In this document: in pieces, positions 23,176-64,000 of the stretch
Layout: each line of letters opens with the position of its first letter
Numbering within the stretch: the first letter of the stretch is position 1
Origin: Haliclona indistincta
Taxonomy: Eukaryota > Porifera > Demospongiae > Haplosclerida > Chalinidae
Assembly (NCBI GenBank): GCA_964017065.1
Contig: OZ024784.1
Span: forward strand, 1,858,598 to 1,922,597
Length of the DNA stretch: 64,000 bases
Direction of reading: 5' to 3'
Position numbers and translations under genes: made by a program
Notes under the pieces: generated by a model
The model's database searches: none
Told to the model about the DNA's origin: nothing
Seen by the model: the letters and a program-made list of their open reading frames with translations, nothing else

Positions 23176-23527
23176 TGCAGGCTAGCTAAGCGCTAGGCGT
23201 GCACGTTATAGCCACGCCCACGCCACGCCTAAATAGATATTCTTTGGCGGGTAGTAGCTGGGAATATCCCTCAGAGACTGATCAAGGCTAAGCAGAGCGG
23301 TATTCCCCAAACACTCAATAAATATTACACAAGATTCATTCACAACCAGTCCACGCTACACCACTGGCTTACCGAACGAGCAACAGGTGCTACAGCTATG
23401 TTCAACTGTTTGTCTTGAAGAAGCCAACTTGTCAAACAACCTAGGTTTGGGTAAGTGCCTATCACTGATGCTGTAGCTCAAGCTATGCGTCTTTCTCTAT
23501 TAGGTGTCGTGTGCGCTATTTGATAAG
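23176..23527. promoter_or_regulatory. Divergent promoter region, USP40 and ankyrin-pseudokinase genes
   Basis: These 352 bp separate the start codons of two oppositely transcribed genes. A likely 5' UTR splice acceptor (TTAG) for the plus-strand gene ends at 23503. No clear TATA box was found. Confidence 0.45.
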
Positions 23528-43800: not shown

Positions 43801-44716
43801 TCTGGTGCCATCCAACATGGCGTGCCAACAAATGTGTTACGAGGCTTCTTCTTGCGACCAGCCAAACCTGTCTCTCCGTACAACCAGTTACTGACACCAA
43901 AATCTGCAAAAAGAAGCAAACAAGAAATGAGAGAAGAGAAAGGAAGAGGGTGGTGGTTACCTGCCAAGTGAACTGTACCATCGTTCCCGACAAGAATATT
44001 ACCTGCCTTCAAATCTCTGCAAGTAACACAACAATCCACAGTCTCTCTCTGTCTGGCTGGCTGGCTCCTAACCTGTGTATCTGTCCGTTAGCGTGAAAGT
44101 AGTCCAGTCCCTGGAGAACAGCCTTCAGTACAGTTGCTATGACAACCTCATCTAAAACTCCACCCTTCGGGTTCCGAGAGATGACATGCTTGATGATATC
44201 CAGCAATGAACCTGCAATGACAAAAAATAATAAATCCCGAGATATCATATATCATTTCATACCTCCTGACATGAGCTTCATTACTAGCCACACTTCATCC
44301 TTGACGACAAATGAGGTATAACAGTTAGCAACATTAGGATGATTGCATCGACTCATTAGACTGATCTCTTTCTGTGAGTATGACCAGGAGGAGGTGGAGT
44401 CAAGGGGTGGTGGCTAGAGAGGAGTCTAACACACTACACTGACATACCTGTAGCTCCTCAATAGAGGACCCATACTGCTCTAAGTCAATTCTCTTCACGG
44501 CTACCTTTTCTTTACGAGGGAGACACATTGCTGCCTGGACCACTGAAGAAGCGCCGCTTCCTACACAAACGATATGACCCAGGGCATCGTGAAGCAGCTC
44601 CTCTTCTAACCTATCACTTCAAGCAACTCATAATCTTCTTTTCTGTTCGGCCAGGGTAGCGGGGGCGACAGTGGAGGTCGCTCATGATCCTGGTCAGGAT
44701 CCACGGTAGCAGCCAT
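40827..44716 (-). CDS. OXSR1: STE20-type kinase of the OSR1/SPAK family
   Basis: A multi-exon gene starting at 44716 and ending [10 protein letters not shown] at 40827. DYELLEVIG then [11 protein letters not shown] forms the glycine loop across an intron. [11 protein letters not shown] has the ATP-binding Lys. [13 protein letters not shown] and DFGVSNWL are the catalytic motifs, and [13 protein letters not shown] is the activation loop whose first Thr is the WNK target in OSR1. [11 protein letters not shown] closes the kinase. [14 protein letters not shown] is the regulatory segment. [29 protein letters not shown] and KKLIGYAQL form the conserved C-terminal (CCT) domain that binds RFxV peptides. 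The family relays WNK signals to cation-chloride cotransporters and controls cell volume. The last intron (41011-41507) holds open hydrophobic frames, discussed separately. Confidence 0.92.
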
Positions 44717-44848: not shown

Positions 44849-46081
44849 TTATTGATTGTCATCATCAGAATTGTAAATATCAATCTTGATCTTAGAATAC
44901 TGTCCATCATCATCTCTTTGTAGTGACTGCTTATCATCATGAGTGGTAGCTGACAGCTGCACCTGATGGTTGAGAGAGCTATACTGGTGATCCAACCCTC
45001 CAACACATCCTGTCATGTACACTGGATTATCTAGTGTGGGCTGTGCCCCACTATCATCAGATAAACAGAAGTTCTCTCCATTTTCAGTTTTGGTTTTGTT
45101 GACTGGTTTCACAACACTGTACTGTGCTTCAACAGTTTGTTGTTTTCTTGTACTAACAACAGGTACTTCATAAGCAACCGGTTCATGACTAAATATAGTC
45201 TCGTCACTTCTGTGTATAAACAATAAATCATGAAAGATAAACCAGCATGCATCACTTACTGCTGTATAACTATGTTGCTGTTATCATCTATAGAATAAAG
45301 AATTAGTGTCAGTTCTGTATTGAGCAGATACATTCACTTACTATTGCACTCATTCATAACATACTCTTTCCTTCTTCTTCTTCGTCTCTGCACTAGTAGT
45401 ATTACAATCAATAACAAGGAGATGATTATGATAATCAGTAGAACTACTCCAGTTGCTGTAGCTGCATATAGTATAGTAGACTGCATCTCACTTCTAGGAG
45501 CAGGTAGTGTGGTCTGTTCAGAGTGAACTGGTAGATCAGCACATGTTATATTTTCCATTGTCTGTGTTGTTGTGTTCTGGCTAACACATGTTGGTTGAGT
45601 GTAGTTCTCAGGAGCCAGTAGAGTGAACACATTGCTCCTCATCAGAGGCTGGTCAGGATCAGCTGTTGTGTTGATCACCTGACACCAGTACTTGCCAAGA
45701 TAGCTGGGGTTGTACTGCTGGTTGATAAAGTCACTGTTATGATATCTTGAGAACCAATGCATGCTCTCTAGTGATCCATTAGGTTCACCAAGTCCCAGGT
45801 CCTCTACTGCTCCAGTTGTGTTCTCTCTGAACCATCGTATTTCAAACTCATTAGTTCGATGCCTCACAATACATTCCAGTACTATTGTAATTCTTTTAGT
45901 ACGATTGAAAGGATTACAGTTTTGTGTAGTAGAGAGAGGTTGCTGTGTGTATTCAAAGATGCACAGACCTGCTATCAGTAAATCATGCTGATGACAGTAT
46001 TCCTTAGTTTAGCTTACCTGAACAGCACTGAGCACACTGACACAATAATGTCAGTAAGAAGATAATACTTTGAGACTCCAT
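44849..46081 (-). CDS. Ig-domain receptor A (tail type A), intact
   Basis: The leftmost member of the tandem receptor array. The signal exon starts at 46081 (MESQSIIFLLTLLCQCAQCC). One exon, 45342-45968, carries the Ig domain, stalk and membrane helix. The Ig core shows LECIV, EIRWFRENTTG and GKYWCQV, i.e. the two canonical Cys and the Trp. The stalk has a second Cys pair (PTC...ITCADLP). The helix (VVLLIIIIISLLLIVILLV) and a poly-Arg stop-transfer are a class unique to this copy. A 28-nt exon (45260-45287) and the tail exon 44849-45209 follow. The tail tyrosines sit in AYEVPV, AQYSVV, NPVYMTG, HQYSSL and GQYSKI. Exon phases agree and there is no lesion. The likely role is a tyrosine-signalling surface receptor; the ligand is unknown. 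Confidence 0.8.
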
Positions 46082-46406
46082 CAAATCAACTATGAACCAG
46101 AAATCAGTCATCAGTCAATCCATTCAGGCTTCACGTAACATCAATTGATATTTATACTAGAACCTCAGTCAGTAAATACACATGACCATGTGATTTGTTA
46201 TAACAACAACACTCCAGTTGTGTTGTGTTGTGTAGAAAAGTCCACAAATATTATCAGCTGTTGTAGCAATAAAAATATTGTGGTTTGACTAACCAGTACT
46301 GCACAACCTACTACTATGGCTAGTTTATTATCTCCTTTCATACTAATAATATTGCATGAAAGAGAGAGGCTGAAAAGTCACATGCAATTGTGATGTTTGC
46401 AGAAAA
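46082..46406 (-). promoter_or_regulatory. 5' flank of gene A (flank class 1)
   Basis: The sequence just upstream of the gene A start is closely repeated upstream of gene C (50714-50973), including the block around ATGAACCAGAAATCAGTC and a TGTTGTGTTG run. A shared promoter carried along by duplication is the simplest reading. Confidence 0.5.
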
Positions 46407-47340
46407 CTAGTCATGAATATCTAGCTTAGAATACTGTCCATCACTATCAGTAGCATCTCTTTGTAGTGACTGCTGATCATCATGAGTGGTAGCTGACAGC
46501 TGCACCTGATGGTTGAGAGAGCTGTACTGGTGATCCAACCCTCCAACACATCCTGTCATGTACACTGGATTATCTAGTGTGGGCAGTGTTGATAAACAGT
46601 GTCTGTCTTCATTTTCATTTCTCTTGTTGCCTTCATTGTTGACTGGTTTCACAACACTGTACTGTGCTTCAACAGTTTGTTGTTGTTGTTGTTTTCTTGT
46701 ACTAATAACTGGTACTTCATAAGCTGTTGGTTCATGACTAAAAACACTCTCATCTATAGCAGAGGTTTCTTTACACCTGCAAAGAAAATAGAAGCTGTGT
46801 TTTGGTATACAAACAAGTATACTCACGGAGGATGAGTTATGATGTCATAGTAACCTAGTATAGAAAAGTCAACATTAATTAGGGAGACACGGTAGTGTCT
46901 CCCTATGTAGGGTTGAACGAGAAAACAAGATGGCGGCTACATACAATGTATTAGCGTTCAAACGCTGATATTTCGCCTGGTGATGAATTTTATACGTCCA
47001 AAGACACTTAAATCTGCTATCTGGCGTTGCCCCATCTTACAGTAGCAAGGAGATTGCTCGAGATTGTTACTAAAGTGACGAACCTGGAAACGGTGAAAAT
47101 CGAGTTTCGTCATCTTCGTTTTCTTCTTCTTTCTTTCTTTCTTTCTTCCACTCGCCTAGCACCTTTACGTGAGCAGTGCCGAGACCAAAACACCCACGAA
47201 CAGTCGTGAAATTCTCCTGGCATGTGCCTTTTGAACTTAGTTTTTAGCGAAACGGCGATATAAATTCCGCGATTTCTCGATCGTGATCCATTGTCAGCTA
47301 AGTGTTAGACGCCATTAATAATTATAGTGATTGCGCAATA

Positions 47341-47379
47341 CGCACGTGACCAAGCTGTGGTTAGCGCACGTGACCAAGC
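47341..47379. repeat. Direct repeat CGCACGTGACCAAGC, two copies
   Basis: Two copies at 47341-47355 and 47365-47379, within the insertion in gene B, each with a CACGTG core. Confidence 0.85.
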
Positions 47380-47713
47380 ACAAGCTTGAGTATCGCCACG
47401 CCGTATAGATCACGGAGTTGTCTGGAGTCTTCGAAGAACGGTAAGCTAGCAAGCGCCGATTCACCATTCTGCCTTGATAGATAATTATAACCGCCGTAAA
47501 CAAGTGTGGGCGGGGCTCGTATGCACTGTATTCATGCATGCGTAGGCGAGCTGATATCTACAGCATAACAATTGTTTAGCTACAAGTTTAATAATAAAGA
47601 AAAGCCATCAACAACGTTAACAGGAAAACCAAACCAATGGTGGAAACAAAGATGGCACAGTAATTACATGATATTGAACTGTACTTCACTGAAAAAGAAA
47701 AAAGGACACAAAC

Positions 47714-48097
47714 AAGAAAATTAAAAAGATTTCTATCGAAATCAAAAGGATGTAGGGTTGTGAAATCTACCACTGGTCAACAATGTAAACTAACAAGGAA
47801 CAAGCATGGAATGGTAACACGATTGACTTGCTAACAGACCATAGATCCCTACATCAGTGGCTGTACATAAGCTGTTACAAGCTGAATGCACGTCAGGTGT
47901 CAGTCAACAGCAACAAGCTAAGCTGAACTAGCTATAGTCAACTACAACAGCCACTGATGTAGGGATCTATGGTCTGTTAGCAAGTCAATCGTGTTACCAT
48001 TCCATGCTTGTTCCTTGTTAGTTTACATTGTTGACCAGTGGTAGATTTCACAACCCTACATCCTTTTGATTTCGATAGAAATCTTTTTAATTTTCTT
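47714..48097. repeat. 151-bp perfect inverted repeat (foldback)
   Basis: The left arm is 47714-47864 and the right arm 47947-48097. The loop is 82 bp. The identity of the arms indicates a recent origin or ongoing repair by conversion. Confidence 0.9.
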
Positions 48098-49045
48098 TAT
48101 TATCATGTGTTGTACCAATAACGATATTGTGGTTTCACTAACCAGTATCTTTGCTGGTAGAGCTGCTTTGTGCCTTCTTCTTCCTCCTCTTCTGGTGTAT
48201 CACTATCAGTATTGCAATCAGTGATGAGCAGACAATGAGTAGTAGAACTACTGCACACACTCCTACTACTGATACAATGATGGATGCTTTATTGGGTGTC
48301 ACTGAGCCTGAGATAGTTGGAAATACTGATGATGACAAAATGATGATTGATGTGTGATGAAGGAATTAGTTAAAAGCATAAAAAACCTTTCTTGTCTTTA
48401 CCTATAAAACAAGAGTTTACTAGCGCATATGAACTCAGTGTAGTGGTAGGAGCAGGTAATGTGGTCTGTTCAGAGTGAACTGGTAGATCAGCACATGTTA
48501 TATTCTCCATTGTCTGTGTTACTGTGCTCTGGCTAACACATGTTGGTTGAGTGTAGTTCTCAGGAGCCAGTAGAGTGAACACATTGCTCCTCATCAGAGG
48601 CTGGTCAGGATCAGCTGTTGTGTTGATCACCTGACATCAGTACTTGCCGAGATAGCTGGGGTTGTACTGCTGGTTGAGAAAGTCACTGTCATGATATCTT
48701 GAGAACCAATGCATGCTTCCTTGTGAGTTATCAGGATCACCAAGTCCCAGTTCCTCTACTGCTCCAGTTGTGTTCTCTCTGAACCATCGTATTTCAAACT
48801 CATTAGTTTGATTCATCACATAACACTCCAGTACTATTGTAATGAATCCATTTTGATCAATAGGATTACAGCAGTTTAGTGTAGTAGAAGGAGGTTGCTG
48901 TGTGTACTCAAACATACACTGACTTGCTAGCAGGAGACATTTTATTATGAGCAGCTAAAATTTTACAGACCAACTCACCTGAACAATACCAATTCAAGAG
49001 ATGTAGTATCACCATTACACTGAAAGCAGTGTATTGAGACTCCAT

Positions 49046-49320
49046 TGATCCAGCCGATCTGGACAGCTTCAGAGTATAATCCCAAAGGAAGTCGGACACT
49101 GTTTATAGTATTGTGTTTGTTTACTCATTCATGTTGCTCCATGTACACTACAGCACAACTTGTAACGATAATGAAGATAAACATTCAAACTTCCAGTGGG
49201 TGCCATCGAAACTAAAATCTTCATTCATACATGCATGCACTTTTAGTGAAGATTCTCATGAATAAACATGTTGTACATCTCAATAGCAAGGGCACTATGT
49301 GATTATCATACAGTAAATTA
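49046..49320 (-). promoter_or_regulatory. 5' flank of gene B (flank class 2)
   Basis: The block around ATGTTGCTCCATGTACACTA and the CAAACTTCCAGTGGGTGCC segment recur upstream of genes D (52497-52793) and F (56089-56400). These three genes also share the MES(Q/R)YTAF signal peptide. Confidence 0.55.
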
Positions 49321-49375
49321 TCATTGTGGAATAGTGTAGGTGTGTTCCTCTCGACTAGTAGGGTCTACAATGGCG

Positions 49376-50713
49376 TTACTCCTTGTCTCCTATCTTCACT
49401 GAGGGTGCTCCTTTCTTCCCAGCACTAGTGCAGGGTGTGGTGTACATACTGGTGTAGTCAGTGGTAACAGTGTCCAGTGGTTGGTAGTGGGAGCTCTGCT
49501 GGTCATCATTGCGAGTGTGTGGTGGGTTAACATCAAAATAGTGAGGATTCCAATATTGTGGATATTCAGTCGTTTGATGATCTGCTGGAACATAATTGCA
49601 AACACGATACAAGTACAGTACACAGTAAAATATCATTCAGTGTTGTCTTACTGATTATTTCTGTAGATTCTACCTTTCTTTCTGAAGAACTAGATAATGT
49701 TTACATTATAATAATCTATAAATTATGTAAGTAGTTGTCTTTATTGTTGCTCACTTCTGATGTTTGTTTCTCTGGGTTTGTTTTGCTGTAATTGATGATT
49801 CTAATACAGTTGTGTAAATATTATTGCTTTATGCTAACCTCTTTTCTTTATTCTTTGTCTCTTTACTAGTAACAGAATGATAGTAACTGATATTACACTG
49901 ACAATAACAATGACAGCACTCAATACAGCTGCTACTGGATACACTATGAGCAATACACTTGCTGTTGGACTAGCTGGAGAGATAGTGGAGGAGATGATAT
50001 TTGTAACATAACTACCTGAAGTAGCATTAGTTAGTGAAAGACCAGCACACAATGTCATTGACTGCATGTATTCTGTAGGACTGTCTTGCATTTTGCTGCT
50101 TGATTTGTCCAATGAACTCAGTGTAGTGGTAGGAGCAGGTAATGTGGTCTGTTCAGAGTGAACTGGTAGATCAGCACATGTTATATTCTCCATTGTCTGT
50201 AATGTGCTCTGGTTAGCACATGTTGATTGAGTGTAGTTCTCAGGAGCCAGTAGAGTGAACACATTGCTCCTCATCAGAGGCTGGTCAGGATCAGCTGTTG
50301 TGTTGATCACCTGACACCAGTACTTGCCAAGATAGCTGGGGTTGTACTGCTGGTTGAAGAAGTCACTGTTATGATATCTTGAGAACCAATGCATGCTTCC
50401 TTGTGATTTATTAGGTTCACCAAGTCCCAGGTCCTCTACAACTCCAGTTGTGTTCTCTCTTAACCATCGTATTTCAAACTCATTAGTTTGATGCCTCACA
50501 ACACAGTCCAACACTATTGTAATTCTTTCATTACGATTGAAAGGATTACAGTTTTGTGTATTAGAGAGAGGTTGGTGTGTGTATTCAAAGATGCACTGAC
50601 CTGCTATCAGTAAATCATGCTGATGACAGTATTCCTTAGTTTAGCTTACCTGAACAGCACTGAGCACACAGACACAATAATGTCAGTAAGAAGATAATAC
50701 TTTGAGACTCCAT
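49376..50713 (-). CDS. Ig-domain receptor C (tail type B), tail truncated by one inserted base
   Basis: The signal exon starts at 50713 (MESQSIIFLLTLLCLCAQCC). One exon, about 49837-50600, carries the Ig domain (EIRWLRENTTG, GKYWCQV), a long Ser/Thr stalk and the helix of class 3 (VAAVLSAVIVIVSVISVTI). A 9-nt microexon (49652-49660) and the type B tail exon follow. Compared with genes E, G and J, an extra T in the GGCGTTACTCC stretch makes TAA after IGDKE. The tail therefore loses YAIVDP and YTIPQ but keeps DPxYW-like YPQYWNPHYF, SHYQPL and TDYTSMY. The undamaged frame would have ended at 49321. The product may still be functional with three fewer signalling sites at most. Confidence 0.72.
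49652..49660 (-). other. Predicted 9-nt microexon in gene C
   Basis: The minus-strand sequence AAATAATCA, flanked by CTACAG and GTAAG, joins the TM exon (ending in phase 1) to the tail exon (also needing phase 1) and adds EIIN. The same sequence and flanks occur in E (53123-53131) and G (56882-56890). Confidence 0.6.
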
Positions 50714-50973
50714 CAAATCAACTATGAACCAGAAATCAGTCCTCGGTCAATCCATTCAGGCTTCACGTACAGCAAAAACACTCCAGTTGTGTTGTGTTGT
50801 GTTGAAAAGTCAACAATTATTATCAGATGTTGTAGCAATAAAATATTGTGGTTTCACTAACCAGTATTTCACAACCTACTCTGGCTAGTTTATTATCTCC
50901 TTTCATACTATTAATATTGCATGAAAGAGAGAGAGGCTGAAAAGTCACGTGTAGTTGTGATGTTTGCAGAAAA

Positions 50974-52496
50974 CTAGTCATGAGTATCTAGCTTAGAATA
51001 CTGTCCATCACTATCAGTATCATCTCTTTGTAGTGACTGCTGATCATCATGAGTGGTAGCTGACAGCTGCACCTGATGGTTGAGAGAGCTGTACTGGTGA
51101 TCCAACCCTCCAACACATCCTGTCATGTACACTGGATTATCTAGTGTGGGCGGTGTTGATAAACAGTGTCTGTCTTCATTTTCATTTCTCTTGTTGCCTT
51201 CATTGTTGACTGGTTTCACAACACTGTACTGTGCTTCAACAGTTTGTTGTTGTTGTTTTCTTGTACTAATAACAGGTACTTCATAAGCTGTTGGTTCATG
51301 ACTAAAAACACTCTCAACTATAGCAGAGGTTTCTTTACACCTGCAAAGAAAATAGAAGCTGTGAGTTTGTATACAAACTAAGTATACTCACGGAGGATGA
51401 GTTATGATGTCATAGTAACCTAGTATAGAAAAGTCAACAATTATTATCAGCTGTTGTACCAATAACAATAATATTGTGGTTTCACTAACCAGTATCTTTG
51501 CTGGTAGAGTTGCTTTGTGCCTTCTTCCTCCTCCTCCTCCTCTGGTGTATCACTATCAGTATTACAATCAGTGATGAGCAGACAATGAGTAGTAGAACTA
51601 CTGCACACACTCCTACTACTGATACAATGATAGGTGCTTCATTGGGTGTCACTGAGCTTGAGATAGTTGGGAATACTGCCATCATCGAAAACGATGATTG
51701 ATGTGTGTCTACTAATGATGAGGGCTGGGTAGTTGAGTTAGATATGGCACATTGGGTAAGTTGAAAGGAGATGCTAGTGGTAGTTGAAACATCATTAGCT
51801 GCAAATAAAGAATTAGTTAAAAGCATAAAAAACATTGCATCTTTACCTATAAAATCTGAAAAGCTTGAGTTCACTGGTGCATATGAACTCAGTGTAGTGG
51901 TAGGAGCAGGTAATGTGGTCTGTTCAGAGTGAACTGGTAGATCAGCGCATGTTTCATTATTAATTGTATGTGTTACATTGCTCTGGTTAACACATGTTGG
52001 TTGAGTGTAGCTCTCAGGACCCAGTAGAGTGAACACATTGCTCCTCATCAGAGGCTGGTCAGGATCAGCTGTTGTGTTGATCACCTGACACCAGTACTTG
52101 CCGAGATAGCTGGGGTTGTACTGCTGGTTGAGAAAGTCTCTGTCATGATATCTTGAGAACCAATGCATGCTTCCTTGTGAGTATTCAGGTTTACCAAGTC
52201 CCAGGTCTTCTACTGCTCCAGTTGTGTTCTCTCTGAACCATCGTATCTCAAACTCATTAGTTTGATGCCTCACAACACACTCCAGTACTATTGCAATGAG
52301 TCCATTATGATAAGGATTACAGCAGTTTAGTGTAGTAGAAGGAGGTTGCCGTGTGTACTCAAACATACACTGGCTTGCTAACAGGAGACATTTTATTAAG
52401 ACCAGCTAAAGTTTTACAGACCAACTCACCCGAACAATACCAATTCAAGAGATGTAGTATCACCATTGTACTGAAAGCAGTGTATCGAGACTCCAT
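50974..52496 (-). CDS. Ig-domain receptor D (tail type A), intact
   Basis: The signal exon starts at 52496 (MESRYTAFSTMVILHLLNW). The Ig exon runs from about 52376 with LNCCNP, LECVVRHQ, EIRWFRE and GKYWCQV. The stalk and TM exon continue in an open frame to 51488. A 48-nt segment with GT...AG ends (51799-51846) lies between them and can be spliced out or read through without changing frame. The helix is VVGVCAVVLLLIVCSSLIVI, followed by a run of Arg/Lys. The tail has AYEVPV, AQYSVV, NPVYMTG, HQYSSL and GQYSKL and stops at 50974. It is the best full-length model for the TM2/tail A subclass. Confidence 0.8.
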
Positions 52497-52793
52497 TGAT
52501 CCAGTCGATCTGGACAGCTTCAGAGAATAATCACAAAAAAAGTCGTACACTGCTTATACTATTGTGTTTGTTTACTCATTCATGTTGCTCCATGTACACT
52601 ACAGCACAACTTGTAACGATAATGAAGATAAACATTCAAACTTCCAGTGGGTGCCATCGGAACTAAAATCGTCATTCATACATGCATGCACTTTCAGTGA
52701 AGATTCTCATGAATAAGCAACAAAACATTTTGTACATATTTCTAATCTCAACAGTCACTAAGTTGTTATCATACTAGTCTTGTCAGTAAATTA

Positions 52794-54198
52794 TCATTGT
52801 GGAATAGTGTAGGTGTGTTCCTCTCTACTAGTAGGGTCTACAATGGCGTACTCCTTGTCTCCTATCTTCACTGAGGGTGCTCCTTTCTTCCCAGCACTAG
52901 TGCAGGGTGTGGTGTACATACTGGTGTAGTCAGTGGTAACAGTGTCCAGTGGTTGGTAGTGGGAGCTCTGCTGGTCATCATTGTGAGTGTGTGGTGGGTT
53001 AACATCAAAATAGTGAGGATTCCAATATTGTGGATCTTCAGTCATTTGATGATCTGCTGGAATATAATTGCAAACACGATACAAGTACAGTACACAGTAA
53101 AATACCATTCAGTGTTTCTTACTGATTATTTCTGTAGATTCTACCTTTCTTTCTGAAGAACTAGATAATGTTTACATTATTATAATAATAATTATTTAAG
53201 TAGTTGTCTTTATTGTTGCTCACTTCTGATGTTTGTTATTCTGTGTTTGCTTTGCTGTAATTAATACAGTTATGTAAATATTATTGCTTTATGCTAACCT
53301 CTTTTCTTTATTCTTTGTCTCTTTACTAGTAACAGAATGACAGTAACTGATATTACACTGACAATAACAATGACAGCACTCAATACAGCTGCTACTGGAT
53401 ACACTATGGGCAATACACTTGCTGTTGGACTAGCTGGAGAGATAGTGGAGGAGGTGATATTTGTAACATAACTACCTGAAGTAGCATTAGTTAGTGAAAG
53501 ACCAGCACACATTGCCATTGAACTGCATGTATACTTACCTTCTGTAGAACTGTCTGGTATTTTGCAGCTTAATTTGTCCAATGAACTCAGTGTAGTGGTA
53601 GGAGCAGGTAATGTGGTCTGTTCAGAGTGAACTGGTAGATCAGCACATGTTATATTCTCCATTGTCTGTGTTACTGTGCTCTGGCTAACACATGTTGGTT
53701 GAGTGTAGTTCTCAGGAGCCAGTAGAGTGAACACATTGCTCCTCATCAGAGGCTGGTCAGGATCAGCTGTTGTGTTGATCACCTGACACCAGTACTTGCC
53801 GAGATAGCTGGGGCTGTACTGCTGGTTGATAAAGTTCCTTTCATGATACAGTGAGAACCAACGCGTGGTTCCTTGCCCTTGTGATCCATCAGGTTCACCA
53901 AGTCCCAGGTCCTCTACTGCTCCAGTTGTGTTCTCTCTGAACCATCGTATTTCAAACTCATTAGTTTGATGCCTCACAATACACTCCAGTGTTATTGTAA
54001 TGTACCCATTTTGATCAATAGGATTACAGCAGTTTAGTGTATTAGAAGGAGGTTGCCGTATGTACTCAATCATACACTGACCTGTGATAATAGAAAGTTA
54101 ATGTCAAACTAAATTCACTAGACCATCTCACCTGAACAACACTGATTAAGCAGACATAGTATCATCTGTAAACTGATAGCTATGTGATGAGACTCCAT
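52794..54198 (-). CDS. Ig-domain receptor E (tail type B), intact
   Basis: The signal exon starts at 54198 (MESHHIAISLQMILCLLNQ). The Ig-stalk-TM exon runs from 54081 to about 53300. It differs from its sisters at the most variable part of the Ig domain (SQGQGTTRWFSLYHERNF). The helix is class 3. The 9-nt microexon lies at 53123-53131 and the tail stops at 52794. Tail tyrosines: DPQYWNPHYF, SSHYQPL (Ser at -2, Leu at +3, an ITIM match), TDYTSMY, KEYAIVDP and HTYTIPQ. It is the best full-length model of the type B tail. Confidence 0.8.
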
Positions 54199-54639
54199 TG
54201 ATACTAATTTAGGACGAAATGATGCACTGCTAATGCTTGTACTTGTGTTTATTTATGCACTCAAACTGAATGATAACATCTAAAATAAACAACAAAGCAT
54301 TGATCATTGTAAACGCGAAGTCTGACGTCTCACATACAACTTATAGTTATTCTGTCCTCAAGAAGGAATGCTACTGCTGATACTTTAACTTGTCCTCATG
54401 CTCTCACCTCTGTTACAGTTTTCTGCTCTCAACCATGTCCTGTGCTCTTCATGTTGCATTTGTCCTTTCAGTTTTTGCAAATTTGTCAATATTTTTGTAC
54501 AATTTCCTGTGTATTTTTTTATTTATGTACACTACAAACATCATTAGAGAAGAAGAACACAAAGCAATCAGCTAGTCTCTGTACTGTGTATTTGGTCTAT
54601 ACACTACAATACTAGTCCAGTATTTCTAGTTATAACATT
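54199..54639 (-). promoter_or_regulatory. 5' flank of gene E (flank class 3)
   Basis: The flank around TTATGCACTCAAACTGAATG and the TCCTCAAGAAGGAA block recurs upstream of genes G (57932-58416) and J (62574-63082), which share the MESHHIAIS signal peptide. No other gene is seen here. Confidence 0.55.
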
Positions 54640-56088
54640 CTAATTGTAGTCTGCAAAGGCTGATTCAATCTTGATCTTAGAATACTGTCCATCACTATCA
54701 GTATCATCTCTTTGTAGTGACTGCTGATCATCATGAGTGGTAGCTGACAGCTGCACCTGATGGTTGAGAGAGCTGTACTGGTGATCCAACCCTCCAACAC
54801 ATCCTGTCATGTACACTGGATTATCTAGTGTGGGCAGTGTTGATAAACAGTGTTCGTCTTCATTTTCATTTTTCTTGTTGCCTTCGTTGTTGACTGGTTT
54901 CACAACACTGTACTGTGCTTCAACAGTTTGTTGTTGCTGTTTTCTTGTTCTAATAACTGGTACTTCATAAGCTGCTGGTTCATGACTAAAAACACTCTCA
55001 TCTATATCAGAGGTTTCTTTACACCTGCAAAGAAAATAGAAGCTGTGAGTTGGTATACAAACTAAGTATACTCACGGAGGATGAGTTATGATGTCATAGT
55101 AACCTAGTATAGAAAAGTCAACAATATTATTATCAGCTGTTGTAGCAATAACAATATTGTGGTTTCACTAACCAGTATCTTTGCTGATAGAGCTGCTTTG
55201 TCCCTTCTTCTTCCTCCTCTTCTTCTGGTGTATCACTATCAGTATTACAATCAGTGATGAGCAGACAATGAGTACTAGAACTACTGCACACACTCCTACC
55301 ACTGATCCAATGATAGGTGCTTCATTGGGTGTCACTGAGTTGGAAATACTGATGATGACAATATGATGATTGGTGTGTGTCTACTAATGATGAGGGAATT
55401 AGTAAAAGCATAAAAACCTTTCTTGTCTTTGCATCTGTACCTATATAATCTGAAGAACATGAGTTCACTATCGCATATGAACTCAGTGTAGTGGTAGGAG
55501 CAGGTAATGTGGTCTGTTCAGAGTGAACTGGTAGATCAGCACATGTTTCATTATTCATCGTCTGTGTTACTGTGCTCTGGTTAGCACATGTTGGTTGAGT
55601 GTAGTTCTCAGGAGCCAGTAGAGTGAACACATTGCTCCTCATCAGAGGCTGGTCAAGATCAGCTGTTGTGTTGATCACCTGACACCAGTACTTGCCGAAA
55701 TAGCTGGGGTTGTACTGCTGGTTGATAAAGTTCTTTTCATGATACAGTGAGAACCAATGCATGCTTCCTTGTGATCTATTAGGAAAACCAAGTCCCAGGT
55801 CCTCTACTGCTCCAGTTGTGTTCTCTCTGAACCAACGTATTTCAAAATCATTAGTTTGATTCCTCACAATACACTCCAGTGTTATTGCAATGGATCCATT
55901 TTGATAAGGATTACAGCAGTTTAGTGTAGTAGAAGGAGGTTGCCGTGTGAACTCAAACATACACTGACCTGCTAGAAGGAGTCCTTTTATTAAGAGCTGC
56001 TATAGTTTTACTGAGCAACTCACCTGAAACACAAATAAGAGAGATGTAGTATCACCATTGTACTGAAAGCAGTGTATTGAGACTCCAT
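54640..56088 (-). pseudogene. Ig-domain receptor F (tail type A), frameshifted
   Basis: The exon order matches gene D: signal (start 56088), Ig, TM, small exon, tail (stop 54640, SKIKIESAFADYN). Two lesions are visible. First, the start of the TM exon lacks 10 nt present in gene B (at about 55340), so splicing at the conserved CATCATCAG acceptor runs into TGA before the helix. Second, the end of the signal exon differs and appears to finish in phase 2, whereas the Ig exon needs phase 1. Without alternative splicing, no membrane protein can be made. The Ig domain itself (EIRWFRENTTG, GKYWCQV) is undamaged, so a secreted product remains possible if the first lesion is tolerated. Confidence 0.7.
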
Positions 56089-56564
56089 TGATCCAGTCGA
56101 TCTGGACAGCTTCAGAGTATGATCCCAAAGGAAGTCGTACACTGCTTATACTGTTGTGTTTGTTTACTCATTCAAGGTGCTCCATGTACACTACAGCACA
56201 ACTTGTAACGATATTGAAGATAAACATTCAAACTTCCAGTGAGTGCCCTCAAAACTAAAATCTTCATTCATACATGCACGCACATTTAGTGAAGATTCTC
56301 ATGAATAAGCAACAAAGCATTTTGTACATATAATTTCTAATCCCAACAGTCACTAAGTTATTATCATACTAGTCTTGTCAGTGAATTATCATTGTGGAAT
56401 AGTGTAGGCGTGTAGAGAAACTGGAGCAGACACATCCACTAGTGCTTTATCCATACCATACATATAGAAAACAGATGCTAAAATCATTATTATGTAACCA
56501 TGTATGACTGTTGGTAAATGTGTATAAGACAGCAGTATCAAGAACAAAATTCCTTTATAGTTCA
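56089..56564 (-). promoter_or_regulatory. 5' flank of gene F (flank class 2) and 3' flank of gene G
   Basis: Its right part repeats the flank seen upstream of B and D. Near 56387-56410 there is a second copy of the type B stop region (TCATTGTGGAATAGTGTAG), about 180 bp before the real tail exon of gene G. This marks a short internal duplication or a recombination scar. Confidence 0.5.
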
Positions 56565-57931
56565 TCATTGTGGAATAGTGTAGGTGTGTTCATCTCTTCT
56601 AGCAGGGTCTACAATGGCGTACTCCTTGTCTCCTATCTTCACTGAGGGTGCTCCTTTCTTCCCAGCACTAGTGCAGGGTGTGGTGTACATACTGGTGTAG
56701 TCAGTGGTAACAGTGTCCAGTGGTTGGTAGTGGGAGCTCTGCTCGTCATCATTGTGAGTGTGTGGTGGGTTAACATCAAAATAGTGAGGATTCCAATATT
56801 GTGGATCTTCAGTCATTTGATGATCTGCTGGAACATGATACAAGTACAGTACACAGTAAAATACCATTCAGTGTTTCTTACTGATTATTTCTGTAGATTC
56901 TACCTTTCTTTCTGAAGAACTAGATAATGTTACATTATAATTAATATTTAAGTAGTTGTCTTTATTGTATCTCACTTCTGATGCTTGTTTCTCTGGGTTT
57001 GTTTTGCTGTAATTGATGATTCTAATACAGTTATGTAAATATTATTGCTTTATGCTAACCTCTTTTCTTTATTCTTTGTCTCTTTACTAGTAGCAGAATG
57101 ATAGTAACTGATATTACACTGACAATAACAATGACAGCACTCAATACAGCTGCTACTGGATACACTATGAGCAATACACTTGCTGTTGGACTAGCTGGAG
57201 AGATAGTGGAGGAGGTGATATTTATAACATAACTACCTGAAGTAGCATTAGTTAGTGAAAGACCAGTCATTGAACTGCATGTATACTTACCTTCTGTAGG
57301 ACTGTCTGGTATTTTGCAGCTTAATTTGTCCAATGAACTCAGTGTAGTGGTAGGAGCAGATAATGTGGTCTGTTCAGAGTGAACTGGTAGATCAGCACAT
57401 GTTATATTATTCATTGTCTGTGTTACTGTGCTCTGGTTAACACATGTTGGTTGAGTGTAGTTCTCAGGAGCCAGTAGAGTGAACACATTGCTCCTCATCA
57501 GAGGCTGGTCAGGATCAGCTGTTGTGTTGATCACCTGACACCAGTACTTGCCGAGATAGCTGGGGTTGTACTGCTGGTTGAAGAAGTCACTGTCATGATA
57601 TCTCGAGTACCAATGCATGTTTCCTTGTGATTGATTAGGATCACCAAGTCCCAGGTCCTCTACTGTTCCAGTTGTGTTCTCTCTGAACCATCGTATCTCA
57701 AACTCATTAGTTTGATGCACTGCATTGTTATTGCAATGATTCCTCTATTATAAGGATTACAGCAGTTTAGTGTAGTAGAAGGAGGTTGCTGTATGTACTC
57801 AAACATACACTGACCTGTGATAATAGAGAGTTAATGTCAAACTAAATTCACTAGACCATCTCACCTGAACAACACTGATTAAACAGACATAATATCATCT
57901 GTAAACTGATAGCTATGTGATGCGACTCCAT
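56565..57931 (-). pseudogene. Ig-domain receptor G (tail type B), frameshift in the Ig domain
   Basis: The signal exon starts at 57931 (MESHHIAISLQMILCLFNQ). The tail is complete (stop 56565, DEHTYTIPQ) and the helix is class 3. The Ig exon lacks 10 nt just before the HQTNEFEIRW segment (about 57720), where sisters encode LECVVRHQ. This removes the first Ig cysteine and shifts the frame. Everything after the lesion is open down to the TM region (57055-57720). The 10-nt size equals that of the deletion in the adjacent gene F. It is probably a recent pseudogene. Confidence 0.7.
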
Positions 57932-58416
57932 TGATACTATTTTAGGACGAACTGACGCACTGCTAATGCTTGTACTTAGTGTTTATTTATGCACTCAAAC
58001 TGAATGATAACATCTAAAATATACAACAAAGCATTGATCATTGTAAACGTGAAGTCTGTTGTTTCACATATGACTTATAGTGATTCTTTCCTCAAGAAGG
58101 AACGCTACTGCTGATACTTTACCTTGTCCTTGTGCTCTCACCTCTTTTTCTGCTCTCGGTCATGTTCTGAGCTCTTCATGTTGCATTTGCCCTTTCAGTT
58201 TTTTGCAAATTTATCAATATTTTGTGCAATTTTCTGCAGATATTGGCTTAAATTAGTCACTGCTAATATAAATGATTTATGTACACTACAAACATCATCA
58301 GAGAAGAACACAAAGCAATCAGCTAGTTTCTGTACTGTGTATTTGGTCTATACTAATCTAAGACTGCCCAGTATTACTAGCTATAACATTCTTTGATTAC
58401 ATTGTAGTCTGCAAAT
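57932..58416 (-). promoter_or_regulatory. 5' flank of gene G (flank class 3)
   Basis: It repeats the flank of genes E and J over most of its length. No other gene is seen. Confidence 0.5.
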
Positions 58417-60071
58417 TTAATTATTATCTTCAAAAGGCTGATCGTAAATATCAATCTTGATCTTAGAATACTGTCCATCACTATCAGTATCATCTCTTTG
58501 TAGTGACTGCTGATCATCATGAGTGGTGGCTGACAGCTGCACCTGATGGTTGAGAGAGCTGTACTGGTGATCCAACCCTCCAACACATCCTGTCATGTAC
58601 ACTGGATTATCTAGTGTGGGTGGTGCCTCACTAGTACCAGGAGATGGCACTCCATCTTTGTCATCCTTATTGTCCTTTCTCTTGGTTTTGTTAGCTAGAT
58701 TCACAACACTGTAGACCACTTCAGGTTCCTGTTGCTGGTTATTGCTAGCAATGGGCATATCGTAAGTACGTGAGTTGTTAAAAGCACTCTCAGTTACGAC
58801 AGATGATTCTAAATTCCTGTAAGTACTCACACAATGAAGTGAGCAAGGAATGGTATTAGTACTCACTGTAGTGGAGGAGCAATGATATTGTAACCATCTA
58901 TAATAGATAAATTTATTAAATAACGCTGATTAATTATAATATTATAACAGGAAGGCATATTATTGAGGTTGAGCATAGTATAGGAAAGCTTCCTAATTCA
59001 CTCACTCTCGTTATAAGCTCCTGATTATAATGACTAAGATGATGCAGAATTCCTTTAACTAACCTTTAACTTTATTGGTAGAGTTGATTTGTCTCTTCTT
59101 CCTCCTCCTCCTCTGGTGTATCACTATCAGTATTACAATCAGTGATGAGCAGACAATGAGTAGTAGAACTACTGCACACACTCCTACTACTGATCCAATG
59201 ATAGGTGCTTCATTGGGTGACGCTAAACTTGAGGATGTTGGGTTTACTGGTGTCATAAATAATGACGATAATGGATTTGAGCTAAGGACTGCTATAGAGT
59301 GGAATGCGAGAAAATATTATAAATGTGAATGCTAAAATATAGCACTATGCAGCACTGTATTACAATTGCTACTGTAATTCTTCAAAATTCTCATGTCATT
59401 GCATCCTTACCAACTGTTGTATAGTTTGATAATTGAGAAGAGCTGAATTTATCCAAGTTTACATATGAACTCAGTGTAGTGATAGGAGCAGGTAATGTGG
59501 TCTGTTCAGAGTGAACTGGTAGATCAGCACATGTTTCATTACTCATTGTCTGTATTGTTGTGTTCTGATTAATACAAGTTGGTTGAGTGTAGTTCTCAGG
59601 AGCCAGTAGAGTGAACACATTGCTCCTCATCAGAGGCTGGTCAGGATCAGCTGTTGTATTGATCACCTGACACCAGTACTTGCCAAGATAGCTGGGGTTG
59701 TACTGCTGGTTTAATAAACCATGATACCTTGACAGCCATTGTGTGTTTCCCGAGTTCAAGCTTTCATTGTAGCCAAGTCCCAGGCCCTCTACTGCTCCAG
59801 TTGTGTTCTCTCTGAACCATCGTATTTCAAACTCATTAATTTGATGCCTCACAACACAATCTATTACTATAAAAGTGTAACCATTAAATTGGTATGGATT
59901 ACAGCTGCTTAATGTAGTTGAAGGAGGTTGTTGAGTGTACTCATACGTACACTGACCTGTAGTTGGCTATAAATTGTCAATAGCAACAACTATACAGATT
60001 AGCTCACCTGAGCAATACTGAGCAATCTTGTGAAATATCAACAGTAAGCTGACAAAGTGATGAGATTCCAT
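58417..60071 (-). CDS. Ig-domain receptor H (tail type A variant), intact
   Basis: The signal exon starts at 60071 (MESHHFVSLLLIFHKIAQY). The Ig exon runs from about 59957 to 59412 (IDCVVRHQ, EIRWFRE, GKYWCQV). It is the most divergent Ig here, with GLGYNESLNSGNTQWLSRYH where others have SMHWFSRYH. The TM exon (about 59066-59300) is class 2. The small exon gives DGYNIIAPPLQ. The proximal tail differs from A-F: RTYDMPIA and VVYSVVNLA (Val at -2 and +3, an ITIM match), followed by the shared distal part NPVYMTG, HQYSSL and GQYSKI, ending QPFEDNN at 58417. Phases agree throughout. Confidence 0.8.
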
Positions 60072-60264
60072 TTGTGCAAGCTATGAAGACAAAAATCAAT
60101 TCTGTGCTTATTCTCTCATTCAAGTTCTAAATACAACAATGAAAATAACTTTCATTCAGATAGATCACCTGTTTATCCTCAGGATTAATAATAACAGCTG
60201 TATGTGAACTAAAAATATATACACATGATGCATTGAGTCATGTAAACCCTAAACCCTGATGCAA

Positions 60265-60650
60265 TCACTTATAGTAGTAGGAGTGAATAATGTGGTCTGT
60301 ATCAGTGAACACATTGCTCCTCATCAGAGGCTGGTCAGGATCAGCTGTTGTGTTGATCACCTGACACCAGTACTTGCCGAGATAGCTGGGGTTGTACTGC
60401 TGGTTGAAGAAGTCACTGTCATGATATCTTGAGAACCAATGCATACTTCCTTCTCTTAGTGATCCACTAGGGTGACCTAACCTCAAATCCTCTACTGCTC
60501 TAGTTGTGGTCTCTCTCAATCATCACAATTCATCAATTAAACTCACTACTCTGATATCTCACAATACACTCCAGTGTCATTTATTGTGATGAATCCATAA
60601 TGATATAGATTACAGCAGCTCCAAATAAACAGATATTTATGATCACCAAT
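60265..60650 (-). pseudogene. Relic I: fragment of an Ig exon
   Basis: Only the second half of an Ig exon is recognisable (SMHWFSRYH through GKYWCQVINTTADPDQPLM). The first half is decayed with stops, and an internal deletion fuses the stalk directly to SNVFT. No signal, TM or tail exon belongs clearly to it. The preserved segment is nearly identical to functional copies. Confidence 0.75.
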
Positions 60651-61007
60651 AAGCTGATAACAGTGTATCATTGATTCATGAAGACCGGACAGATCATGAC
60701 CTCAAATTAAAAATGGTCAGTGCTTATACTACATGTATGTGTTTGTCACTCATTCATGCGGCTCCATGTGTATACTACAACACAACTAGTAATAATGAAC
60801 ACTCACTCAAAGAAATATTAAGTGAGTTTAGTGGTGTTCTCAGAACTACAAACAGTATTGCATACACGCATACACTTTAGATGGTAGTGAAGAGTCTCCT
60901 CAATGGTATTCTCTTACGAAGAAATGAGCAACAATACAAGCTAGTACAATGTACCCAAGTTTTTCATGGAATACATACTAATTTACTAAACTAATGTTAG
61001 AAATTTA
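60651..61007. other. Intergenic sequence between relic I and gene J
   Basis: AT-rich, with weak resemblance to class 2 flanks (GGCTCCATGTGTATACTACA). No gene is seen. Confidence 0.4.
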
Positions 61008-62573
61008 TCATTGTGGAATAGCGTAGGCATGCTCCTCTCTTCTAGTAGGGTCTACAATGGCGTACTCCTTGTCTCCTATCTTCACTGAGGGTGCTCCTTT
61101 CTTCCCAGCACTAGTGCAGGGTGTGGTGTACATACTGGTGTAGTCAGTGGTAACAGTGTCCAGTGGTTGGTAGTGGGAGCTCTGCTGGTCATCGTTGTGA
61201 GTGTGTGGTGGGCGAAGATCATAATAGTGAGGATTCCAATATTGTGGATCTTCAATCATTTGATGATCTACCATCATACAAGTAATCAATACAAATGCAA
61301 TAAAATACCATTCAAAGTTTATTTTTCTTACCAGTAGATGGTGCTCCATCTTTGTCATTCTTGTTGTCGATTCTCTTGATAAGGTTTGCTAGATTCACAA
61401 CACTGTAGACCAATTCAGGTTTCTGTTGTTGTTGCTTTTCACTAGCAATGGGCATCTCGTAAGCACGTGGGTTGCTAGAATCACTATCCATTATGGCTAA
61501 ATTTCTGAATACAACAAAAGAGCAAGTATTGGATACTGATATCATTACTCACTGTAGTGAGGCAGTGTTGACATGGTAACCATCTACATAAAATTTAATA
61601 ATAAGTTTAGTTGACAGATTTGATATCAATTTTTCACTAACCATTATCTTTGCTGGTAGAGCTGCTTTGTGCCTTCTTCTTCTTCTTCCTCCTTCTCTGG
61701 TGTATCACTATCAGTATTACAATCAGTGATGAGCAGACAATGAGTAGTAGAACTACTGCACACACTCCTACTACTGATACTAGTACGATCATAGGTGCTT
61801 CACTAGGTATCACTGAGCTTGATGAGGTAGTTGGGACTACTGCAGTATCAAAAGGCGATAGTTGAAATGAAGTAAACTCTGCAATAAAGTATATTTCTGA
61901 GCTCGTATTTAAAACTTAAAGCCAATGTTCTTACCTACATATTCCATTGGACAGTCTGACACATATGAACTCAGTGTAGTGGTAGGAGCAGGTAATGTGG
62001 TCTGTCCAGAGTGAACTGGTAGATCAGCACATGTTATATTATTCATTGTCTGTGTTAATGTGCTCTGGCTAACACATGTTGGTTGAGTGTAGTTCTCAGG
62101 AGCCAGTAGAGTGAACACATTGCTCCTCATCAGAGGCTGGTCAGGATCAGCTGTTGTGTTGATCACCTGACACCAGTACTTGCCAAGATAGCTGGGGTTG
62201 TACTGCTGGTTGATAAAGTCACTGTTATGATATCTTGAGAACCAGTGCATGCTTCCTAGTGATCTATCAGGATCACCAAGTCCCAGGTCCTCTACTGCTC
62301 CAGCTGTGTTCTCTCTGAACCATCGTATTTCAAACTCATTAGTTTGATTCCTCACAGTACAGTCCAGTGTTATTGTAATGAATCCATTTTGATAAGGATT
62401 ACAGCAGTTTAATGTAGTAGAAGGAGGTTGCCATGTGTACTCAAACATACACTGACCTGTGACAATAGAAAGTTATTGTCAAACTAAATTCACTAGACCA
62501 TCTCACCTGAACAACACTGATTAAGCAGGCATAATATCATCTGTAAACTGATAGCTATGTGGTGGGACTCCAT
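61008..62573 (-). CDS. Ig-domain receptor J with hybrid tail (A-variant proximal, B distal)
   Basis: The signal exon starts at 62573 (MESHHIAISLQMILCLLNQ, as in E and G). The Ig exon is intact (EIRWFRENTAG, GKYWCQV), about 61936-62459. The TM exon (about 61640-61910) is class 2, like B, D, F and H. The small exon gives DGYHVNTASLQ. The proximal tail exon resembles H and K (RAYEMPIA, LVYSVVNLA) and ends APSTG with a splice donor at about 61332. It joins in phase 1 to a type B distal exon (DPQYWNPHYYDL, SHYQPL, TDYTSMY, KEYAIV, HAYAIPQ) ending at 61008. So J combines modules seen in separate genes elsewhere, replacing NPVY, YSSL and YSKI with the B set. Confidence 0.78.
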
Positions 62574-63082
62574 TGATACTACAGTTGTGTGTATTTTAGG
62601 ACGAAATGATGCACTGCTAATGCATGTACTTAGTGTTTATTTATGCACTCAAACTGAATGATAACATCCAAAATATACAACAAAGCATTGATCATTGTAA
62701 GTGTGAAGTCTGTCGTTTCACATATGACTTATAGTGATTCTTTCCTCAAGAAGGAAAGCTACTGCTGATACTTTACCTTGTCCTTGTGCTCTCACCTCTG
62801 TTACAGTTTTTCTGCTCCCAAGTGCTCTTCATATTGCATTTGTCCTTTCAGTTATTGCAAATTTGTCAATATTTTGTACAATTTTCTGCGTATTTTACAG
62901 ACGATGGCTTCAGTTAGTCACTGCTAATATCAATGATTTATGTACACTATAAACATTATCAGAGAAGCAGAGCACAAAGCAATCAGCTAGTCTCTGTACT
63001 GTGTATTTTGGTCTATACACTACAATACCAATCTAAGACTGTCCAGTATCTATATTCTATGATTACATTGTAGTCTGCAAAT
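62574..63082 (-). promoter_or_regulatory. 5' flank of gene J (flank class 3)
   Basis: It repeats the flank of genes E and G, including the TCCTCAAGAAGGAA block. No other gene is seen. Confidence 0.5.
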
Positions 63083-64000
63083 TTAATAATTATCTTCAAA
63101 AGGCTGATTGTAAATATCAATCTTGATCTTAGAATACTGTCCATCACTATCAGTATCATCTCTTTGTAGTGACTGCTGATCATCATGAGTGGTAGCTGAC
63201 AGCTGCATCTGATGGTTGAGAGAGCTGTACTGGTGATCCAACCCTCCAACACATCCTGTCATGTACACTGGATTATCTAGTGTGGGTGGTACCTCACTGA
63301 TACCAGGAGATGGTACTCCATCTTTGTCATCTTTGTTGCTCTTTCTCTTGGTTTTGTTAGCTAGATTCACAACACTGTAGACCACTTCAGGTTCTTGTTG
63401 CTGGTCATTGCTAGCAATGGGCATATCGTAAGTACGTGAGTTGCTAAAAGCACTCTCAGTTACAACAGATGATTCTAAATTCCTGTATGTACACACAATG
63501 AAGTGAGCACGTAATGGTATTATAGGACTCACTGTAGTGGAGGAGTGCTGATATTGTAACCATCTATAATAGATAAATATTTATTAAGTAATGCTGAATA
63601 ATAATTGTAACAGGAAGGCATATTATTGAGGTTGAGCACAGTATAGGAAAGCTTCCTATTTCACTCACTCTCGTTATAAGCTACTGATTATAATGACTAA
63701 GATGATGCAGAATTCCTTTAACTAACCTTTAACTTTATTGGTAGAGTTGTTTTGGGCCTTCTTCCTCCTCCTCTGGTGTATCACTATCAGTAATACAATC
63801 AGTGATGAGCAGACAATGAGTAGTAGAACTACTGCACACACTCCTACTACTGATCCAATGATAGGTGCTTCATTGAGTGTCACTGAGCTTGAGGATGTTG
63901 CTGTTGTAAATGATGACGATAATGGAGTTGAGCTGAGGAATGCTATAGAGAGGAGAACGAGAAAATATTATAAATGTGAATGCTAAAATATAGCACTATG
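63083..64000 (-). CDS. Ig-domain receptor K (tail type A variant), partial at window edge
   Basis: The 3' part of another array member: TM exon (about 63727-63942, class 2), small exon near 63534-63562, and tail exon about 63083-63485 with RTYDMPIA, VVYSVVNLA, NPVYMTG, HQYSSL and GQYSKI, ending QPFEDNY. The tail is nearly identical to that of gene H, marking these two as recent duplicates. The Ig and signal exons lie to the right of the window, so the array continues. Confidence 0.78.

Follow-up and report, generated by a model that had tools for sequence, protein, structure and literature searches.

We analysed a window of 64 000 nucleotides from the sponge Haliclona indistincta (positions 1858598–1922597 of contig OZ024784.1, here C2; coordinates without a contig count from the first base of the window). 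Between positions 44849 and 63883 its minus strand carries a tandem array of receptor genes which, together with related copies on contigs C8 and C10, probably represents a large germline-diversified family of type I cell-surface recognition receptors with interchangeable outputs. Judging from the sequence, we put the probability of this reading at roughly 60%. Each receptor is predicted to have a single V-type immunoglobulin (Ig) domain, followed by a stalk rich in threonine, a single helix and a tail rich in tyrosine.

Exon mapping placed nine genes in a block at 44849–62573, an Ig-exon relic among them at 60304–60620 and, of a tenth gene, the helix and tail exons at 63125–63883. A first-pass annotation of this DNA had counted at least ten such genes and a relic on one strand; the array and the relic stand, while the count becomes nine genes and the 3′ part of a tenth. 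Its description of one Ig domain and one helix per gene, of diversified Ig domains on shared stalks, and of tandem copies with relics and lesions agrees with the exon map. Each gene opens with a signal exon, continues with an Ig exon of some 163 codons and a one-helix stalk, and closes with its tail exons. Exon junctions of genes 4, 5 and 9, read by hand from the genomic sequence, are phase 1, except for phase 2 before a T2 or T0 tail exon. Gene 4 served as the model gene, with a protein of 433 residues from hand-joined exons, and three signal exons that the single signal-peptide query had missed were assigned by eye.

The genome searched comprises 144 Mb in 46 contigs. As the first reading had proposed, the array leaves the window: Ig-exon matches run on to C2:1978783, so that it spans approximately 76 kb on C2. 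The Ig exon yielded 129 genome matches, many of them fragmentary, at C2 1.904–1.979 Mb, C8 6.50 Mb and C10 0.27–0.31, 0.69–0.71, 0.92–1.06 and 4.89 Mb, and elsewhere as further short or distant matches. E values for the nine Ig exons of the window were 6e-117 (the query matching itself) and from 5e-99 to 8e-76, and a 41-base core of the Ig exon has 82 genome matches with three or fewer mismatches (60 are exact; 19, 2 and 1 have one, two and three mismatches, respectively), where its reversed control has none; these values exclude a chance origin of the array. Near-full-length exons account for 28 of the 45 C2 Ig matches, two of them with stops (C2 was counted over 1.9026–1.9807 Mb minus two gaps of approximately 2 kb; C10 was covered in part). 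Tail T1 gave 52 genome matches, including fragments, on C2, C8 and C10, and tail T2 gave 22, exclusively on C2 and C8.

A set of 5.8 billion proteins held 67 homologues, of which 30 were read in sequence; none belonged to any named proteome of that set, which includes named Amphimedon queenslandica proteins. Seven of the 67 (P0003, P0004, P0008, P0028, P0029, P0039 and P0050) are 100% identical to array sequence over their whole length, and the best array matches of P0001, P0005, P0006 and P0011 reach 86, 92, 88 and 77%, respectively.

Variable and homogenised parts of the Ig domain

The receptor Ig domain is a V-type fold, with cysteines in the B and F strands. At an E value of 0.01 the V-set profile matched one and the ig profile five of 65 family proteins, and no Pfam Ig family rose above its cut-off in seven window proteins, four of which were tails. 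Variation was followed in an alignment of 37 intact Ig exons (27 from C2/C8, 10 from C10). Across 25 C2/C8 copies (two divergent ones were left out here and in the segment correlations below), residues 21–31 and 61–82 are the most variable, with mean differences of 0.32 and 0.30; variation is moderate at residues 2–20 (0.14) and 119–142 (0.11), low at 32–60 (0.06) and least, at 0.01, in the F strand, FG loop and G strand (the FG stretch). In 65 family sequences, 13 of the 18 invariant columns fall within residues 91–120. On the proposed reading, copies would differ in ligand preference through the initial two thirds of the Ig domain, and through residues 21–31 and 61–82 in particular.

The FG stretch covers 87 bp in gene 4 (52016–52102) and lies at 45610–45696, 48562–48648, 50242–50328, 53714–53800, 55610–55696, 57466–57552, 59598–59684 and 62098–62184 in the other window genes, with the 41-base core at 60305–60345 in the relic, all on the minus strand. 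By eye, every one of the 82 core matches sits inside an Ig-exon match; some Ig matches, e.g. those at C10:0.69–0.71 Mb, have no core at that threshold. Six type-1 genes (of eight aligned; the two dropped were those whose outer bounds had been guesses) differ least from each other in the FG stretch, with a nucleotide difference of 0.004, then in the tail (0.024) and the helix–tail intron (0.067), and most in the V part (0.174) and intron 1 (0.277), so the 5′ end is divergent and the sequence from the F strand onward is homogenised.

This homogenisation extends to silent sites. At codons with an amino acid conservation of 90% or more, the pairwise silent difference on C2/C8 was 0.011 in the FG stretch (27 codons) versus 0.080 outside it (71 codons; p = 5e-4), and on C10 0.015 (27 codons) versus 0.267 (49 codons; p = 1e-6). 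G+C content at third codon positions (GC3) is also raised in the FG stretch (0.60 versus 0.41 in the V part, and 0.58 versus 0.36), and both features mark one part of the gene. Evidence of the same kind is used for gene conversion in fugu protocadherin clusters, in the relevant part of PMC1852091. Regional gene conversion within arrays, beside protein constraint, probably holds the F strand, FG loop and G strand near-identical here.

Between arrays, array-consensus codons showed silent differences at 2 of 27 positions in the FG stretch and 24 of 79 outside it (p = 0.019), and residues at least 95% conserved showed 2 of 25 versus 8 of 29 (p = 0.086). Given so weak an excess, we claim homogenisation within arrays, and not a proven nucleotide-level function between them. 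Tail blocks, too, may be conserved at silent sites between arrays. Ultraconserved functional DNA was considered and rejected: by windowed synonymous divergence (dS) the FG stretch had looked invariant between contigs against saturated surroundings, and the fairer consensus-codon count left only the excess just given. Of the 37 copies, none has any of the other five frames open across residues 87–121, the RNA fold of the stretch is unremarkable (z = 0.43), Rfam gave nothing in the window at gathering scores, and a scan of viral contigs with an exact 49-base pattern found no match. The stretch is not immune to change, since the stop of gene 2 falls within it. The core is unchanged in the three sister relics, although three bases immediately before it are altered in the one on C8; relics were too few and too young to act as a neutral yardstick.

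Tails and their association with the Ig domain

The tyrosine motifs noted in the first-pass annotation are present as described, but the one exact tail pair it envisaged gives way to three layouts, namely T1 alone, T0 plus T1, and T2 in two subtypes. The pattern YQ[PS]LDT[VA]TT[DE]YTS[MVI], a motif pair with the spacing of an immunoreceptor tyrosine-based activation motif (ITAM), was found in all 29 stop-free T1 tails (out of 31 examined from the 52 genome matches), and YQPL-x6-YTSM is retained in the divergent relative P0031. An ITAM pattern relaxed to L/I/V/M likewise fits 29/29; one T1 tail shuffled 5000 times gave the relaxed form in 3.8% of cases. Among T2 tails, NPVY and YSSL occur in 17 of 17, YSKI or YSKL in 16 and an ITAM-spaced pair in none. 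Forms resembling the immunoreceptor tyrosine-based inhibitory motif (ITIM) occur in four of the 17 T2 tails, as VVYSVV, and in all five T0 exons. By the general rules for such motifs, T1 would recruit tandem-SH2 kinases via YQPL-x6-YTSM/V/I and be activating, and T2, with NPVY, YxxP and single YxxPhi motifs, some of them ITIM-like, would recruit PTB/SH2 adaptors or phosphatases and be modulating.

The same type of ectodomain is found on contrasting tails, and V halves occur on all of them. On an Ig-exon tree of 27 C2/C8 copies, 25 of which were labelled with one of four tail layouts (two with a tail stop were unlabelled), tail layout changes 14 times, against a mean of 13.9 after shuffling and with values as low in 135 of 200 shuffles; the starred branches alone force 3–4 changes per tail label. 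Distances in Ig segments 2–20, 21–31 and 61–82 intercorrelate (r 0.42–0.61; 25 copies), none of the seven Ig segments correlates with tail type in those copies, and distance along the contig correlates weakly (r 0.24 for segment 32–60 and 0.18 for 143–163). Linkage at 100–199 bases on C2/C8 is 0.057 between the V part and the 3′ part (null 0.044, sd 0.008) versus 0.142 within the V part. Helix type, where a helix was found, tracks the tail on these contigs: TMa goes with T1 alone, TMb with T2 or T0 plus T1. Recombination appears to be the simplest cause of this scatter; between tandem copies, and eased by the phase-1 junctions, it would have put like Ig domains onto different tails.

Candidate roles and known systems

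Several observations weigh against the proposed receptor family. Three of the nine window genes carry lesions (gene 2 has a stop and gene 7 a broken frame in the Ig exon, and the tail of gene 3 stops early), and 17 of the 45 C2 Ig matches are fragments. The ratio of non-synonymous to synonymous change (dN/dS) lies below 1 in most Ig-exon windows, and recent positive selection is therefore not demonstrated; we set it aside as an explanation. On C2/C8, dN/dS exceeds 1 in windows 22–31, 32–41, 132–141 and 142–151, and recombination would bias tests for such selection. A strict ITAM (YxxL/I-x6-12-YxxL/I) is present in two of 29 T1 and none of 17 T2 tails, and SHYQPL of T1 fits the ITIM pattern (S/I/V/L)xYxx(L/V/I) in 15 of 29, so that this pattern does not separate the tails; on both counts, tail polarity is uncertain. 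The Ig tree rests on recombining sequence, with six of its 24 inner branches starred and 12 open. A recombination hot spot at the FG stretch was considered but is not demonstrated, since linkage across it, near the null on C2/C8, is kept on C10 (0.239; null 0.107, sd 0.040; ten copies) and linkage within the 3′ part itself is weak as well.

If the family does function in recognition, it may sense pathogens or symbionts, with a separate microbial surface molecule bound by each of the variable Ig domains. The large copy number, the lesions, the reassortment and the contrast between tails are in keeping with fast-evolving sensors, but the FG loop, which is equivalent to the third complementarity-determining region and often a binding loop, is nearly invariant, and we hold this role only tentatively, at well under an even chance.

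Allorecognition, a second role that such a family might have, strikes us as rather unlikely. The variable Ig half would bind homophilically or allele-specifically and decide between fusion and rejection, like Hydractinia Alr1/Alr2. Sponge fusibility has, however, been ascribed to the aggregation factor, and some 80 copies of the core, counting relics, spread over three contigs exceed what an allele-matching locus needs. The four public proteins at 77–92% identity, beside seven of 67 at 100%, are as expected for repertoires that differ between haplotypes; their mismatch fits another haplotype or individual, but they may instead stem from a sister species or from uncovered sequence (the two C2 gaps, most of C10). 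In its favour, the sponge array consists of clustered single-pass Ig genes with pseudogenes, and the Hydractinia complex, in the parts of PMC11067881 and the review PMC11999971 that deal with it, is likewise described as a cluster of single-pass genes of the Ig superfamily in which many models look like pseudogenes. This likeness is one of architecture. The sponge copies, with one V-like domain, a homogenised FG stretch and reassorted tails on three contigs, are strongly similar to each other, whereas the same part of PMC11067881 reports low overall identity among Alr proteins. A bolder version, in which the near-identical F–FG–G DNA would be a recombination anchor that continually moves V halves between activating, ITAM-spaced tails and modulating, NPxY/ITIM-like ones, and the arrays the sponge histocompatibility region, is a long shot.

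Outside immunity, the genes could form a cell-type or tissue adhesion code in the manner of clustered protocadherins, which we consider improbable. Adhesion molecules seldom have a tail with ITAM spacing, every mapped copy has its own tail with no common constant exon, and fragments and relics are many. What speaks for such a code is that the genes diverge in their 5′ part but are homogenised at silent sites, and raised in GC3, in their 3′ part, as reported for the fugu clusters in the corresponding part of PMC1852091; the sponge genes differ in encoding Ig rather than cadherin domains and in having the boundary inside a single Ig domain. If the tandem copies had little function and were for the most part drifting, and if unequal crossing-over and biased gene conversion had produced their patterns in passing, the relics, lesions, fragments, raised GC3 and the unchanged core of the relics would be accounted for, but this is very unlikely given that 26 of the 28 near-full-length C2 Ig exons are stop-free, the tail tyrosines are conserved and the FG protein sequence is kept in proteins of public assemblies.

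Returning to a diversified recognition family, vertebrate paired receptors (KIR, LILR, PILR) are tandem Ig receptors whose related ectodomains sit on contrasting tails, reassorted by recombination. The sponge array resembles them in all of these respects, as far as its reassortment is indeed recombinational. It departs from them in having the ITAM-spaced motif in the receptor's own tail and ITIM-like motifs in part of the tails. Moreover, none of the 32 C2/C8 helices examined (of 38 helix matches) has a charged residue in its core, the longest run without D/E/K/R/H being 28–34 residues in 11 TMa and 18–36 in 21 TMb helices, and the exon map, in which none was systematically sought, showed no partner with a short tail. 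These two features set the array apart from strict vertebrate paired receptors, and the label ‘paired-type’ from the first reading is dropped. Receptors of the FcgammaRIIA type are single chains with an ITAM-like pair in the ligand-binding chain, as in T1, although the second T1 motif ends in M or V, not L/I, in all but a few tails. The sea urchin Sp185/333 proteins belong to a different family from the sponge receptors. Their genes are likewise clustered, similar and diversified in the immune gene family described in part of PMC5103432.

By analogy, the sponge array may work in a way that resembles Alr, KIR or the clustered protocadherins. No published sponge Ig array was recognised in the literature searched, which was limited to open-licence papers and is hence weak evidence of absence. 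How sponges recognise individuals at the molecular level is a long-standing question. Self/non-self or pathogen recognition in sponges now gains a concrete, physically mapped candidate locus, with measurable modules in the variable V halves, the common F–G half and two kinds of phosphotyrosine tail. The occurrence of related ectodomains on contrasting, apparently reassorted tails suggests that this immune-type design may either predate the vertebrate examples or have arisen apart from them.

Gene coordinates and neighbouring features

All genes of the array lie on the minus strand, and their exons are given in the order of transcription. Gene 1 (44849–46081) has its signal exon at about 46081–46018, Ig exon at 45963–45478, helix (TM) exon at 45483–45352 and a T2b tail that reaches 44849. 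Gene 2 (46410–49045; signal 49045–48977, Ig 48921–48430, TM 48302–48141, T2b 46742–46410) is a probable pseudogene, given the in-frame TGA in its Ig exon. Its helix–tail gap of about 1.4 kb (46742–48141) is far longer than those of its neighbours. Gene 3 (49376–50713) comprises a signal exon at about 50713–50650, Ig 50598–50113, TMa 49965–49837 and T1 49591–49379, with the early stop near 49379. The model gene 4 (50977–52496) is made up of signal 52496–52428, Ig 52372–51884, TMb 51652–51488 and T2b 51306–50977. Gene 5 (52797–54198) follows with signal 54198–54130, Ig 54079–53582, TMa 53425–53297 and T1 53063–52797, the last with the ITAM-spaced YQPL-x6-YTSM.

Gene 6 (54673–56088) runs through signal 56088–56041, Ig 55966–55478, TMb 55335–55171 and T2b 54990–54673, and gene 7 (56568–57931) through signal 57931–57863, the frame-broken Ig 57812–57334, TMa 57186–57058 and T1 56834–56568. 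For gene 8 (58459–60071) the exons are signal at about 60071–60006, Ig 59954–59466, TMb 59220–59062 and T2a 58764–58459. The relic at 60304–60620 is cut off immediately after the FG stretch, and sister relics lie at C2:1930428–1930626 and C8:6503385–6503752. The T0 plus T1 layout is seen in gene 9 (61011–62573; signal 62573–62505, Ig 62454–61966, TMb 61813–61640, T0 61491–61330, T1 61268–61011). What the window holds of gene 10 (63125–63883) is TMb 63883–63725 and T2a 63448–63125; its Ig exon, beyond the window, is split over two frames.

Directly adjoining the array is a Pkinase exon (43758–44087, minus strand; just under the Pfam cut-off). About 12 kb from the array lies an iduronate-2-sulfatase-like single-exon gene (31049–32659), whose next relative is 91% identical; Amphimedon queenslandica is the only organism named among the matches listed (two proteins at 61–62%), in keeping with the sponge origin of the DNA. 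An ankyrin-repeat exon followed by a kinase-like exon below the Pfam cut-off occupies 23504–28627 on the plus strand.

Elsewhere in the genome, C10:693726–707451 (plus strand) holds a more diverged cluster with a 1006-residue open frame containing at least two Ig matches. The public protein P0002 has three Ig domains of this kind, with proline-rich repeats between them and an altered FG loop; our guess is that it and this cluster belong together. Further V-set clusters, drawn from 60 matches among 150 scored of 365 candidates, are located at C8:3.95–3.96, C8:8.15–8.25, C9:6.7–6.87, C9:8.34–8.37, C7:7.61–7.65 and C3:8.94–8.96 Mb and are apparently separate Ig families.

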